Below, piece by piece: positions 54,920 through 63,185 of a DNA stretch of 64,000 bases (position 1 is its first letter; every line of letters begins with the position of its first letter). This DNA comes from Streptococcus infantis ATCC 700779 (GTDB lineage: Bacteria; Bacillota; Bacilli; Lactobacillales; Streptococcaceae). The notes beneath the pieces were generated by a model that ran no database searches, was not told where the DNA came from, and saw only the letters and a list, made by a program, of their open reading frames with translations. The stretch spans positions 459,341 through 523,340 of the forward strand of contig NZ_GL732439.1 in assembly GCF_000187465.1 (NCBI RefSeq). The letters run 5' to 3'. A program made the translations under genes and the position numbers.

Positions 54920-56203
54920 TTAGTCTTTATTTTCGTATGGCAAGATCAAGTTCAAAAGGATACCTGTCATTGCTGATAGGGCAGTACCTGAAAGTGTAAC
55001 TGGACCAAGTTTAAGGATTGCTCCACCAAGTCCAAGCACGAGCATTGCACTTGCGATGATAAGATTACGCATTTGACCAAAGTCTACACGTTCCTTGATC
55101 AAAACCTTCAAACCGTTGCTGGCGATAACCCCATAAAGAAGGATAGACATACCACCAAGTACGGCGCTAGGGATTGTAGAAATCAAAGCAGTGAATTTAC
55201 CAAGGAAGCTAAGGGCAATTGCGATAAAGGCTGCGTTACGGATGACTGAGACAGAAGCGATACGAGTCATACCGATCACCCCTGTATTTTCACCGTAGGT
55301 TGTATTAGCAGGACCACCAAGGAAGGCAGATACAGATGTTGCGATACCGTCACCAAGAAGGGTACGGTGAAGACCTGGTTCTTTCAAGAATTGACGGCCA
55401 CAAATTTGGCTCAATACTGTATGGTCACCAATGTGTTCTGAGATTGTTACGATCGCGATTGGTAAGATTGCGATTGTCTCTGGGCCGAAGTAAAGGTTGT
55501 ATTCTTTGAAGGCACCACCTGTGCTAAATGGTAGGTAGAAGCCTGGAATTTCGAACCAGTTAGCTTGAAGAACAGGTGTGAAGTCTACTAAACCAAGAAA
55601 GACTGCAAAAATATATCCACCGATAATGGCAAACAAGAAAGGAATGATACGAAGGAATCCTTTTCCTTTTGTATTGATAAAGGCAGCGATGAGGAAGGTA
55701 ACTACAGCTACAAGAGCATTTTTCCAGTTGCCATCAGCAACAAGACCAGCATTTGTTACAGCTGAACCTGCAAGACCAAGACCGATAACGATAATCATTG
55801 GTCCGATAACAATTGGTGGTAAAAGTTTATCAATCCATTTTGTACCAGCAAAGCGGATGCTAGTTGAAACAAGAACGTAGATTAAACCAGTTAAGATAAC
55901 CCCTGTTTGAGCAGCAGAAACATCGCCACCCATTTCCTTCATAGCAAGAGACATTGCAGTGATGAAGGCAAAAGAAGAACCGAGATAGACCGGAACTTTA
56001 AAGCCAGTAGATACCATGTAAATCAGTGTTCCGACACCTGATGCAAACAGGGCAACAGATACAGGCATTCCCAAAATCAGTGGCACCAAGATGGTAGCAC
56101 CAAACATGGCAAACACGTGCTGGAAGCTGAGTAGAATTCCCTTACCAAAAGAAGGACGTTGGTCAACGTCGAGTAACAAATCAACAGTTGATTCTTGTTT
56201 CAT
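54920..56203 (-). CDS. uraA: Uracil permease
   Basis: A 427-residue NCS2 (nucleobase-ascorbate) transporter with about 14 helices. FGATILVPLILGM (about 34-46), the signature YGENTGVIGMTRIASV (about 288-303) and ISEHIGDHTVLSQICGRQ (about 240-257) identify the UraA/PyrP branch, which imports uracil with protons. The PyrR-type attenuator upstream supports a pyrimidine substrate over xanthine. SD GAGGT. Confidence 0.92.
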   Translation of the reverse strand: MKQESTVDLLLDVDQRPSFGKGILLSFQHVFAMFGATILVPLILGMPVSVALFASGVGTLIYMVSTGFKVPVYLGSSFAFITAMSLAMKEMGGDVSAAQTGVILTGLIYVLVSTSIRFAGTKWIDKLLPPIVIGPMIIVIGLGLAGSAVTNAGLVADGNWKNALVAVVTFLIAAFINTKGKGFLRIIPFLFAIIGGYIFAVFLGLVDFTPVLQANWFEIPGFYLPFSTGGAFKEYNLYFGPETIAILPIAIVTISEHIGDHTVLSQICGRQFLKEPGLHRTLLGDGIATSVSAFLGGPANTTYGENTGVIGMTRIASVSVIRNAAFIAIALSFLGKFTALISTIPSAVLGGMSILLYGVIASNGLKVLIKERVDFGQMRNLIIASAMLVLGLGGAILKLGPVTLSGTALSAMTGILLNLILPYENKD

Positions 56204-56210
56204 AAATACC

Positions 56211-56398
56211 TCACTTTTTGGGCATCAAAAAAGAGCCCATTATTTTACAGCAATAGGCTCTCAGAGTAAGACATCTTTAAAACATGGTTATCCCAATATT
56301 TAAAAATTTTCATATATATCTGCGTCTTCGTCACCTCACGGGATGACATTAAAAACCTTTGCTTGTGATAGTATAGCAGAAAAAAATGATTTTGTAAA
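56211..56398 (-). promoter_or_regulatory. uraA promoter and PyrR-type attenuator leader
   Basis: Minus strand: promoter TTTACA-17-TATACT (56398-56370); PyrR-binding loop TCATCCCGTGAGGTGACG (56347-56329 region), with the conserved CCGTGAGG; then a terminator GAGCC-TATT / AATGGGCTC with TTTTTT (56262-56226) just before the uraA SD. High UMP with PyrR should favour termination. Confidence 0.85.
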
Positions 56399-58979: not shown

Positions 58980-60506
58980 TTAAAGATCTTGTAAATCAAC
59001 TACTTCCAAACCATGCTCTGTCAGACTATAGATACTCGTACAGACTTCTTTTAAAAAACGTCGATCATGCGAAACAGTGACAAGACCACCAGAATAATTG
59101 GCAAAGAGTTTTCTGATTTCTGGTTGAGAAGTTGGAGAAAAATTTCGTGTGGGTTCATCCAGAAGGAGAAAGTTTGGTTTTCGCAGAACTAAATTCAAAA
59201 GAAGGAGTTTCCCTTGTTGACCTCCAGATAAGGAGTGGATTTGGTGGTGCATCTCTGGATAGCTGAAATTAAGACTGGCTAAGTGAGATTGGATTTTCTG
59301 TATTTCCTCTTTGTGTCCAGTTTGGCTGAGAAATTCTACTGGGGATAGATTCAATTGTAGTGTTTCTTGGTAATCTTGTGGCATAAATCCAAGCGAAATC
59401 TCTCTTTTGCCGCTTAGTAGTTGATGTAACTTTGCTAAAAGAGTGGATTTGCCAACGCCGTTGGGACCTATAATGCCGATTTTTTCTTGACCACGGATAG
59501 TTAATTGTAGCCCTTGAGACAGAATTCGTTGGCCAATGGATAAAGTCTCATTTTCTAGTCGAACTAAGACTTTTGAAGCCGCTAATGACTCTATGTCTGA
59601 AAAGAAAAGTTGGATGTGTTCCTCTTCAAGTGGTTTTTGGATCATGGACTGAGCTTCCTTTTCAAAGTGTTTTTCTTGAGAAAGAACATTTTTCATCTTT
59701 TTAGCTAATAGGCGACCAGCAGTACTGTCTTTGGTAGCTCGAAGTGCAGTTTCTACATTTTGCTTAACTCGGCGATGTTTTTCCATGGTTTTGTCATAGA
59801 CTCGTTGGTCATTGGCAGCTTGCTGGCTTTGTCTGGCAAAATTAGCCTTTCTCTGGTCACTATAGCTATCGTAGTCTAAATGTTCTACTAGAGTTTCAGC
59901 TTCCTTTCGATGTTTGACTAGTCGCAAGTGGATAATGGTGTTTGCTGTTTGAGAGAGAAAGTCTTCATCATGAGAAATGAAAATAACGGTTTGCCTGGTT
60001 TTATGAATCTGTTTTTTTAGCCAATCAACCATCTCTATATCCAGGTCATTTGAAGGTTCATCTAAAAATAAAATCTCAAAGGGTTTGGCAAATTCATGGA
60101 TGAGCTGTATTTTCAAAGCTTCACCACCCGAGAGACTACCAATTTCTTGGTCGCTAGCAAAACGGTCGCTATCAAAGTGCAACTCCTCAGCCAAACGATA
60201 GAGAATGCTGAAGTCCAAATCTGTAGACTCTAAAAAGAAGTAGTCCTGTAGAGATTTTTTCTTCAGTTCTCCAGGGAGATGTTGGGGAATATAGGCCAGG
60301 GACTGAAGGTCAGATTGGATTTCTCCCCTGATAGAGAAATCAGCTAATTTTTCTCCCATTAAAGTTCGAAGTAAGGTTGATTTTCCATTTCCTTCTTCGC
60401 CTATAATAGCGACCTTTTCTCCGTCTTGGATGATAATGTTTAAATCGGAAACAAGGTCTCTTAAATCTTTGTTTTGTGTAATGGTCAGATGATTGATTTT
60501 TATCAT
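58980..60506 (-). CDS. ABC-F family ATPase, resembling antibiotic-resistance ABC-F proteins
   Basis: A 508-residue soluble protein with two ATPase domains and no membrane part. Walker A boxes are GEEGNGKST (about 37-45) and GPNGVGKST (about 342-350); signatures are IGSLSGGEALKIQ and IHSLSGGQQGKLL; Walker B boxes are ILFLDEPSND and FLLLDEPTRNFSP. The linker between domains is long and charged. The DEPTRNFSP variant recalls Vga/Lmo0919-type resistance factors that free the ribosome from antibiotics. ATG 60506 has SD AAAGGG. A two-hairpin leader precedes it. Confidence 0.88.
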   Translation of the reverse strand: MIKINHLTITQNKDLRDLVSDLNIIIQDGEKVAIIGEEGNGKSTLLRTLMGEKLADFSIRGEIQSDLQSLAYIPQHLPGELKKKSLQDYFFLESTDLDFSILYRLAEELHFDSDRFASDQEIGSLSGGEALKIQLIHEFAKPFEILFLDEPSNDLDIEMVDWLKKQIHKTRQTVIFISHDEDFLSQTANTIIHLRLVKHRKEAETLVEHLDYDSYSDQRKANFARQSQQAANDQRVYDKTMEKHRRVKQNVETALRATKDSTAGRLLAKKMKNVLSQEKHFEKEAQSMIQKPLEEEHIQLFFSDIESLAASKVLVRLENETLSIGQRILSQGLQLTIRGQEKIGIIGPNGVGKSTLLAKLHQLLSGKREISLGFMPQDYQETLQLNLSPVEFLSQTGHKEEIQKIQSHLASLNFSYPEMHHQIHSLSGGQQGKLLLLNLVLRKPNFLLLDEPTRNFSPTSQPEIRKLFANYSGGLVTVSHDRRFLKEVCTSIYSLTEHGLEVVDLQDL

Positions 60507-60546
60507 ATTATTGCCCTTTCTAGAATGTTCATATTGCATAACAAAA

Positions 60547-60570
60547 AGCTCTACTTTATCTAGTAGAGCT
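60547..60570 (-). terminator. Second (gene-proximal) terminator in the ABC-F leader
   Basis: Minus strand AGCTCTAC / GTAGAGCT followed by TTTTTG, 41 nt before the ABC-F ATG. Confidence 0.75.
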
Positions 60571-60639
60571 AATCGTCTATGTCAAAAAAACTCTTTTAAA
60601 AGGGCTGAAAATCCAGCAGAAAAAAGAGCGCACAAAAAG

Positions 60640-60701
60640 AGACAGAAACAAGATCTACTAAATAAAGGTTCTTTATTTGATAGACTTAGTTGTTCATGTC
60701 T
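60640..60701 (-). terminator. First terminator in the ABC-F leader, overlapping a tiny ORF
   Basis: Minus strand AGACATGAACAA / TTGTTTCTGTCT (two mismatches) enclosing AAATAAAG / CTTTATTT, then CTTTTTG. The 5' arm contains the start of the three-codon ORF, so a ribosome stopped there would block this hairpin. Confidence 0.75.
60686..60697 (-). CDS. Three-codon leader ORF (Met-Asn-Asn) before the ABC-F gene
   Basis: ATG AAC AAC TAA on the minus strand, preceded by GGAGG and AAGGGAG, 25 nt after the expected transcription start. Short uORFs of this size are known in attenuators of resistance ABC-F genes in other firmicutes. Translation is inferred, not shown. Confidence 0.55.
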   Translation of the reverse strand: MNN

Positions 60702-60728
60702 CCCTTACCTCCGAGTATTGTTGCAATC

Positions 60729-60757
60729 ATCATACTCTTTTTAAGAAAATTTGTCAA
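60729..60757 (-). promoter_or_regulatory. Promoter of the ABC-F leader
   Basis: Minus strand TTGACA (60757-60752), 17 nt, TATGAT (60734-60729). Confidence 0.8.

Positions 60758-62477: not shown

Positions 62478-63185
<708 letters not shown>

Follow-up and report, generated by a model that had tools for sequence, protein, structure and literature searches.

A conserved leader with a three-codon upstream open reading frame is probably a ribosome-mediated attenuator of a streptococcal ABC-F gene

In the 64,000-nucleotide (nt) stretch of Streptococcus infantis ATCC 700779 DNA analysed here (contig NZ_GL732439.1, positions 459,341 to 523,340; hereafter the window), the minus strand carries a gene for an ABC-F protein (P0001), and in the leader of this gene a three-codon upstream open reading frame (uORF) lies within a hairpin, SL1, that probably also forms a first intrinsic terminator, T1, while a second terminator, T2, stands just before the gene. 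This leader is a real and conserved feature of streptococcal genomes, and it is very probably a ribosome-mediated attenuator. Taken as a whole, we consider it likely that it attenuates transcription of the ABC-F gene and that what it senses is most likely a drug; by analogy with characterized systems, there are good grounds to expect antibiotics to be the signal and the ABC-F protein to protect ribosomes.

In the mechanism that we propose, ribosomes that are not stalled would clear the uORF at once, SL1 would form behind RNA polymerase, and transcription would end at T1 (~99 nt) or at T2 (~180 nt). If a ribosome were stopped on the uORF start codon or immediately past it, most likely through a drug acting against formation of the first peptide bonds (a pleuromutilin, lincosamide or streptogramin A), it would cover the 5′ arm of SL1 and T1 could not form; the freed 3′ arm of SL1 would then pair with the 5′ arm of T2, both terminators would fail and the ABC-F would be made, the product of which would relieve the stalled ribosomes. 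Ribosome occupancy, the identity of the drug, read-through and resistance are the steps that we infer. An initial annotation, made from the sequence alone, had proposed an attenuator working like those of Lmo0919 and VmlR, in which a ribosome on the uORF breaks the terminator hairpin. The anatomy, the conservation and the lengths of a pneumococcal RNA bear out the attenuator, and its working is refined here in that a stall would not just break a hairpin but also free the SL1 3′ arm to pair with the 5′ arm of T2.

Results

Anatomy of the leader

The promoter, the GGAGG Shine-Dalgarno (SD) sequence and the reading frame ATG-AAC-AAC-TAA named in the initial annotation were all found in the minus-strand sequence (Table 1). 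Its placing of the uORF in the 5′ arm of a terminator hairpin agrees with the 66-nt hairpin SL1 and the U-runs behind it, and the second terminator that it had put ahead of the gene corresponds to T2. The promoter was the top one of 23 promoter sites in 6 kb, where shuffled sequences gave 12.9 sites of any grade. Folding energies of -22.5 kcal/mol for SL1 and -12.3 kcal/mol for T2 were calculated, and the 223-nt leader as a whole folded with z = -4.9, none of 200 shuffles being equally good. A simple terminator scan (plain stems, loops of 3-8 nt) found T2 as AGCTCTACTAGATAAAGTAGAGCT-TTTT, one of 8 terminator-like sites against a shuffle mean of 3.9; SL1 was absent from its list, in our reading because this hairpin has internal loops. 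Read from the sequence, ATTTAGTAGATCT in the SL1 3′ arm (60663-60651) pairs with AGCTCTACTAGAT in the T2 5′ arm (60570-60558) at 12 of 13 positions, one of them a G-U pair.

Table 1. Features of the ABC-F gene and its leader in the window (SpF43 is described below)
Feature	Position in window	Strand	Evidence
Promoter TTGACA-17-TATGAT	60757-60729 (TTGACA 60757-60752, TATGAT 60734-60729)	minus	11/12 consensus match
SpF43 RNA, probable transcription start to T1 end	60722-60624	minus	Rfam RF02436 match
GGAGG, SD of uORF, 10 nt before its ATG	60712-60708	minus	sequence; conserved in relatives
Three-codon uORF ATG-AAC-AAC-TAA (MNN)	60697-60686	minus	sequence; conservation and shuffle control
SL1 hairpin, 66 nt, whole uORF in 5′ arm; predicted anti-antiterminator and first terminator T1	60703-60638	minus	folding; partner swap
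U-runs after SL1	UUUUU 60638-60634; UUUUUU 60625-60620	minus	sequence
Predicted antiterminator strand ATTTAGTAGATCT in SL1 3′ arm	60663-60651	minus	complementarity; masking fold; swap test
T2 5′ arm AGCTCTACTAGAT, predicted antiterminator partner	60570-60558	minus	complementarity; masking fold; swap test
T2, second intrinsic terminator	hairpin 60570-60547, U-run to 60543	minus	terminator scan; folding; srf-19 length
AAAGGG, weak SD of ABC-F gene	60519-60514	minus	sequence
ABC-F gene, 508-aa protein P0001	60506-58980 (ATG at 60506)	minus	open reading frame

The uORF is conserved in Streptococcus while its codons vary

The initial annotation had made its proposal depend on conservation of the leader, and the leader proved to be conserved: DNA matches (E <= 0.001, including partial or weak ones) were found in 154 of the 247 genomes of the genus, and a short uORF with an SD sequence stood ahead of the ABC-F gene in 79/79 assessable streptococcal leaders. 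The ABC-F protein itself was found in 197 of the 247 genomes (E <= 1e-120), and from these gene-bearing genomes 80 leaders (numbered with L) were picked, namely 30 best matches, 20 for diversity and 30 lower-scoring ones; L043 was left out, its leader being cut by a contig end. The three-codon form accounted for 71 of the 79 uORFs, with MNN in 46, and the remainder encoded MYKKSIA (4), MDNNK (2) and MDSNK (2). Among the codon sets were MNN, MKN, MRN, MDK, MIN, MIH, MKI, MYI, MYKKSIA and others, and seven of the 79 uORFs begin with GTG or TTG. The calls are weaker for L072, L090, L100 and L104, and where a leader held several candidates (e.g. L058, L064, L091, L092, L098 and L102), the one at the SL1 position was chosen.

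A shuffle control of 100 rounds was used to gauge chance occurrence. A loose uORF pattern within ~420 nt was present in 76 of the 79 leaders, against a mean of 11.3 and a maximum of 20 in shuffles, and the strict form, an SD followed by ATG, two codons and TAA, in 59, against a mean of 0.06 and a maximum of 1/79; the uORFs of L094, L102 and L106 lie beyond 420 nt and were found separately, outside this control. Across the family (147 genomes), the pattern GGAGGTAANRGAGANATGAACAACTAA, which combines SD and MNN, gave 42 matches when <=2 mismatches were allowed, all in one genus; read backwards, it matched none of the listed genomes. All 30 places fetched out of the 42 had the motif 141-372 nt before the ABC-F gene, and an SD with a uORF was present before ABC-Fs of identity as low as 42%.

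T2 was not found automatically in 7 of 128 leaders, a set in which one species can be represented by both a named and an unnamed record. Five further loci with upstream DNA, L291-L295, were excluded from the uORF counts: L295, of the same genus, has MNN, L291-L293 have a longer possible ORF, and no leader was seen in the fetched upstream DNA of L294. Many leaders carry an insert, judged by the spacing from uORF to gene, and L057, which has one, keeps T1 and T2. In L057, L164 and other mitis-group leaders ~100 extra bases lie between T1 and T2, the distance from uORF to gene being 279-295 nt (in some 341-385) vs 185-198 nt; this insert presumably resembles the pneumococcal RUP repeat. A small basic ORF (~48-50 aa, ending G-N-R) was also observed between attenuator and ABC-F gene in six streptococcal genomes (L094, L095, L100, L102, L106 and L108), at about -175 to -18 from the ABC-F start, and is presumably co-transcribed.

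Both alternative pairings are favoured by own partners

In a partner-swap test, the pairing energy of each arm with its own partner was compared with the mean energy with the arms of other leaders, using 13 chosen clade representatives; T2 was assigned by eye in L070 and L073, two of the seven leaders in which it had not been found automatically. For the SL1 5′ and 3′ arms, the own partner was better in 12 of 13 leaders, the exception being L090, and for the SL1 3′ part and the T2 5′ arm it was better in all 13, in L090 by 0.1 kcal/mol only. None of 20,000 permutations equalled the observed sum in either case, counts that are not strict probabilities because some of the clades are related. With 44 leaders, the antiterminator comparison pointed the same way, the mean being -2.1 kcal/mol. 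These results support the conclusion that both alternative pairings, SL1 and the antiterminator, have been kept in evolution.

Masking of the uORF is predicted to exchange T2 for the antiterminator

When the uORF of the window's leader was masked from -15 to +16 in a partition-function model, T2 fell from 0.88 to 0.19 and the antiterminator rose from 0.00 to 0.68. After shuffling of the SL1 3′ region, the observed loss of T2 was reached in 3 of 150 rounds and the observed antiterminator level in none. The leaders predicted to switch were L031 (that of the window), L056, L057, L064, L065, L067, L074, L082 and L087; eight of these nine were taken for the shuffle, and of the seven besides the window's, L056, L064, L065, L067, L082 and L087 behaved alike and L074 did not (33/150). 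A further element suggested by the full fold, sequestration of the gene's SD by an upstream GCCCTTT, was not seen in L178 and is not claimed.

The lengths of a catalogued pneumococcal RNA fit ends at T1 and T2

The leader is homologous over the full length of the model (1-99 of 99) to the RNA catalogued as Rfam RF02436 SpF43_sRNA, srf-19 or Spd_sr63, scoring 113.3 bits (gathering 70); the model starts 7 nt past the promoter, and its match ends within the second U-run of T1. The catalogue entries give no function; in our reading the RNA would be the terminated leader. In the pneumococcal strain TIGR4, F43 occupies 99 nt in the interval from SP1281 to SP1282, and its confirmation column reads 'Northern' (PMC3395615); for D39V, srf-19 is given as 178 nt (1170746-1170923), 'ncRNA of unknown function', to which a footnote adds 'Alternative terminator present' (PMC6212727). 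Relative to the SpF43 start, the second U-run of T1 in the window spans +98 to +103 and that of T2 +176 to +180, and in L178, from a genome named S. pneumoniae, the T2 U-run spans +173 to +177. The two pneumococcal sizes thus fit ends at T1 and T2, the comparison being one with the sequences of L178 and the window rather than those of TIGR4 or D39V.

Other reports touch the same RNA. It is listed as candidate sRNA (small RNA) M52 in a 2025 survey, one table of which gives 385 strains, and srf-19 is among the sRNAs differentially expressed under blood or cerebrospinal fluid (CSF) conditions. In D39V the expression of srf-19 / SPV_2317 resembles that of ComX-regulated late-competence genes, though an RpoD promoter is predicted, and the same paper terms srf-19 potentially an RNA switch (PMC6560143). 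This competence-like expression would be unexplained if drugs were the sole signal. In a non-encapsulated pneumococcal variant with six further changes, the base 61 bp upstream of SP_1282, near the expected T2, is changed from A to G (PMC4243769). Within the excerpts that our literature search returned, no uORF or drug is tied to the SpF43/srf-19 leader. According to reviews (PMC7154746 among them), Dar et al. 2016 applied Term-seq to oral microbiomes too, and that data set may contain this leader and prior notice of streptococcal leaders. Retapamulin ribosome profiling of the pneumococcus treated ORFs of 10-50 aa (PMC9426450), which probably left a three-codon uORF out of consideration.

The ABC-F protein belongs to a family of its own

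The top NCBIfam model for P0001 was NF000355, for general ribosomal-protection ABC-Fs, whose cut-off of 380 was not reached (294.8 bits), and the models of resistance ABC-Fs also remained below cut-off: Sal 210.9/725, Vga 202/725, Msr 186.4/680, CplR 180.3/780 and Lsa 144.7/750. Plasmid Lsa(E) and Msr(A) pass NF000355, as do three other ABC-Fs of this genome, so that passing it does not by itself mean resistance. A profile of 22 relatives had VmlR2 and VmlR, then YheS and Sal(B), as its nearest solved chains. The predicted structure (pLDDT 89.8), with two ABC domains and linker helices at 212-257 and 261-287, gave VmlR2, PoxtA, EttA, Sal(B) and YheS as top Foldseek matches; no Pfam ABC-F linker domain was found in P0001 at E <= 0.001.

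The motif DEPTRNFSP, which the initial annotation had taken as a mark of the VmlR/Lmo0919 group, did not hold up in that role. It lies in the second ABC domain and was found in 5 of the 12 streptococcal proteins compared, including that of the window, the remaining seven having close variants, among them DEPTRHFSP and DEPSRNISP. No copy was found in the five resistance ABC-Fs compared, Msr(A), Vga(A), OptrA, PoxtA and Lsa(E), or in the three paralogues of this genome, nor was one seen in the alignment of VmlR and VmlR2, whose chains have PTNHLD at this place (Lmo0919 was not inspected). Judged by the sequences compared, DEPTRNFSP is a mark of P0001's own ABC-F family. In a tree of 20 ABC-Fs (VmlR not included), this streptococcal family stood on a separate long branch, with Vga(A), Msr(A), OptrA, PoxtA and the three paralogues apart and Lsa(E) met only through long branches. 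The nearest named ABC-Fs among the matches listed were from S. timonensis (96%) and S. infantis (95%), which fits a commensal.

Short uORFs precede related ABC-F genes outside the genus

An order-wide profile search found the ABC-F in 70 of 295 genomes and 15 of 74 genera (E <= 1e-90), and 20 upstream regions were fetched, 17 from outside the genus and three from within. Inspection by eye yielded a uORF of 3-4 codons in 15 of 17 outside leaders and none in L278 and L280, although the scan lists a candidate MYSC in L280; a uORF was likewise accepted in two of the three same-genus leaders, and L285, the third, has only a longer ORF. The peptides of the 17 accepted leaders were MYTI (7), MNN (2), MIII, MLTI, MMIQ, LSPN, MRI, MIKF, MKVN and LNNF. 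In 16 of them the uORF codons were paired downstream with a mean probability >=0.5 (0.25 in L283), which is a description more than a test because the choice by eye favoured hairpins. In the folding model, a uORF within a hairpin is widespread across the wider family.

Discussion

The results found by computation in the present leader, namely a short uORF with an SD, its position in an anti-antiterminator hairpin and an antiterminator that excludes a terminator, are those of VmlR/Lmo0919-type leaders. Several observations weigh against the proposed working. The predicted switch of the window's leader needs a footprint reaching +16 or beyond and fails at +14; the toeprint of a ribosome with the start codon in its P site lies 16 nt downstream of the A (PMC9226507), so this edge is about where it is expected. 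Among the 25 streptococcal leaders masked in the folding model, which like the 13 of the partner swap were our own choice, a T2 loss >=0.5 was predicted in nine and not in the other 16. In the distant set, T2 was assigned in 12 leaders and clearly lost on masking in two (L274 and L283), the terminator-switch half not being general in this model. No pair was obtained when 15 diverged SL1 segments, aligned with MAFFT, were given to RNAalifold, the probable cause being hairpins that differ in length and are therefore misaligned, and in the 44-leader swap the own pair was worse than the mean with others in six leaders (L090, L092, L096, L098, L099 and L104), five of which have ABC-Fs of 43-48% identity. 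Most validations of the 2012 study were set aside for discrepancies by PMC6212727, which weakens the F43 Northern. Because the ABC-F is under the ribosomal-protection cut-off, the output may not be resistance, and our search of the literature found no induction data for this leader.

The same attenuator could also answer a signal other than an antibiotic, if ordinary stalls in initiation or early elongation were sensed and the ABC-F were an autoregulated core translation factor. The core-like spread of the gene over 197 of 247 genomes, the scores of P0001 under the cut-offs of the resistance models shown, and an expression of srf-19 that resembles late-competence genes and differs in blood or CSF conditions would all suit this reading; we nevertheless judge it rather unlikely, since the plan of the leader is that of the drug-induced VmlR, CplR and Lmo0919, and since RNAs of terminated length were reported from growth for which the available texts mention no such drug. 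Somewhat unlikely, in our estimate, is a wider proposal that joins the two signals: the ABC-F family with DEPTRNFSP or a near form in the second ABC domain, found across Lactobacillales and under the described resistance cut-offs, would be a core translation factor, its uORF of 3-4 drifting codons would sense any halt at the first peptide bond, whether a drug or a physiological state (late competence, for instance) caused it, and SpF43/srf-19 would be the output of the idle sensor.

A trans-acting sRNA with targets elsewhere, standing before the ABC-F gene by accident, would agree with the annotation as sRNA in Rfam, in the pneumococcal papers and, as M52, in the 2025 survey; a conserved start codon with an SD, a second terminator and an antiterminator pairing speak against it, as do the SD-plus-MNN motif ahead of the same ABC-F in 30/30 fetched places, the alternative terminator and potential RNA switch already noted for srf-19, and the fact that the available text of the 2012 study (PMC3395615) does not list the F43 deletion with the eight mutants, out of 15, that it calls attenuated, so that this explanation is very unlikely. 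We hold it to be highly improbable that the two Asn codons sense charged tRNA-Asn in an amino-acid attenuation: MNN occurs in 46 of 79 assessable leaders, but the ABC-F gene has no known tie to asparagine, and asparagine-starvation sensing is disfavoured because relatives have uORFs free of Asn (MIH, MKI, MYI and MYKKSIA in the genus; MYTI, MIII, MLTI and MIKF outside it). Tandem terminators between genes are common, and the loose uORF pattern arises by chance in ~11 of 79 shuffled leaders; yet a mere strong double terminator with a chance ATG and stop is left with next to no probability by the leader's own promoter, the strict uORF form in 59 of 79 leaders vs 0.06 in shuffles, the presence of SD and uORF even where ABC-F identity falls to 42%, and the partner-swap tests.

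The attenuator that we favour would give a testable function to an RNA that has been reported in the pneumococcus since 2012 and catalogued without a role, as with rli53 of Listeria. It draws attention to an ABC-F, chromosomal and possibly inducible by drugs, that is present in 197 of the 247 streptococcal genomes searched and scores under the NCBI resistance ABC-F cut-offs. Since the uORF codons drift while start codon, hairpin and stop are kept, the idea can be tested that uORFs of this kind respond to stalled initiation rather than to a peptide. Two neighbouring leaders were also observed in the window. Rfam SpF44_sRNA lies on the minus strand at 56246-56349, just before a permease-like gene (54920-56203), and F44 is listed as a PyrR-binding site (PMC12323649), which would make it the second catalogued sRNA in the window that is a cis leader. 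A PyrR-binding leader (RF00515; 58.2 bits, gathering 54) lies on the plus strand at 62520-62652, before an ORF at 62664-63185.

Among known systems, the vmlR leader of Bacillus subtilis is similar in having a three-codon uORF in a 5′ anti-antiterminator hairpin, an alternative antiterminator, an intrinsic terminator and an ABC-F gene; its uORF MIN in SL-1, where the present one is MNN, its antiterminator and its terminator were established by toeprints, mutants and immunoblots (PMC9226507). Unlike in vmlR, the present uORF hairpin has its own U-runs and seems to terminate transcription itself, giving two terminators, and the NusG pause motif TTNTTT is not above chance (8 of 13 leaders vs 6.6 expected from shuffles); an SD-sequestering hairpin is an additional feature of vmlR. 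Short uORFs are also reported for CplR (MRI), VmlR2 (MK[L/Q]) and LsaA (MAGN), and the attenuation scheme was shown by experiment for CplR (PMC10201436). The cplR leader of Clostridioides difficile likewise has a three-codon uORF, a 5′ hairpin, a terminator and an ABC-F gene, but its terminator hairpin hides the SD of the gene, whereas the present T2 U-run ends 23 nt before the weak SD. In streptococci, msrD is an ABC-F gene under ribosome-mediated transcription attenuation through msrDL (PMC10314930); that leader encodes the macrolide-sensing MYLIFM and belongs to an operon with mefA, whereas the present gene, which 197 of the 247 Streptococcus genomes carry, follows a short and variable uORF. 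In the lmo0919 leader of Listeria, a three-amino-acid uORF overlaps the anti-antiterminator, and according to a review (PMC7154746, on Dar et al. 2016) the attenuation scheme was shown there by experiment. P0001 is under the cut-off of the Vga model, and catalogues still give the RNA before its gene as an sRNA without known function, as they did the lmo0919 leader when it was first listed as rli53.

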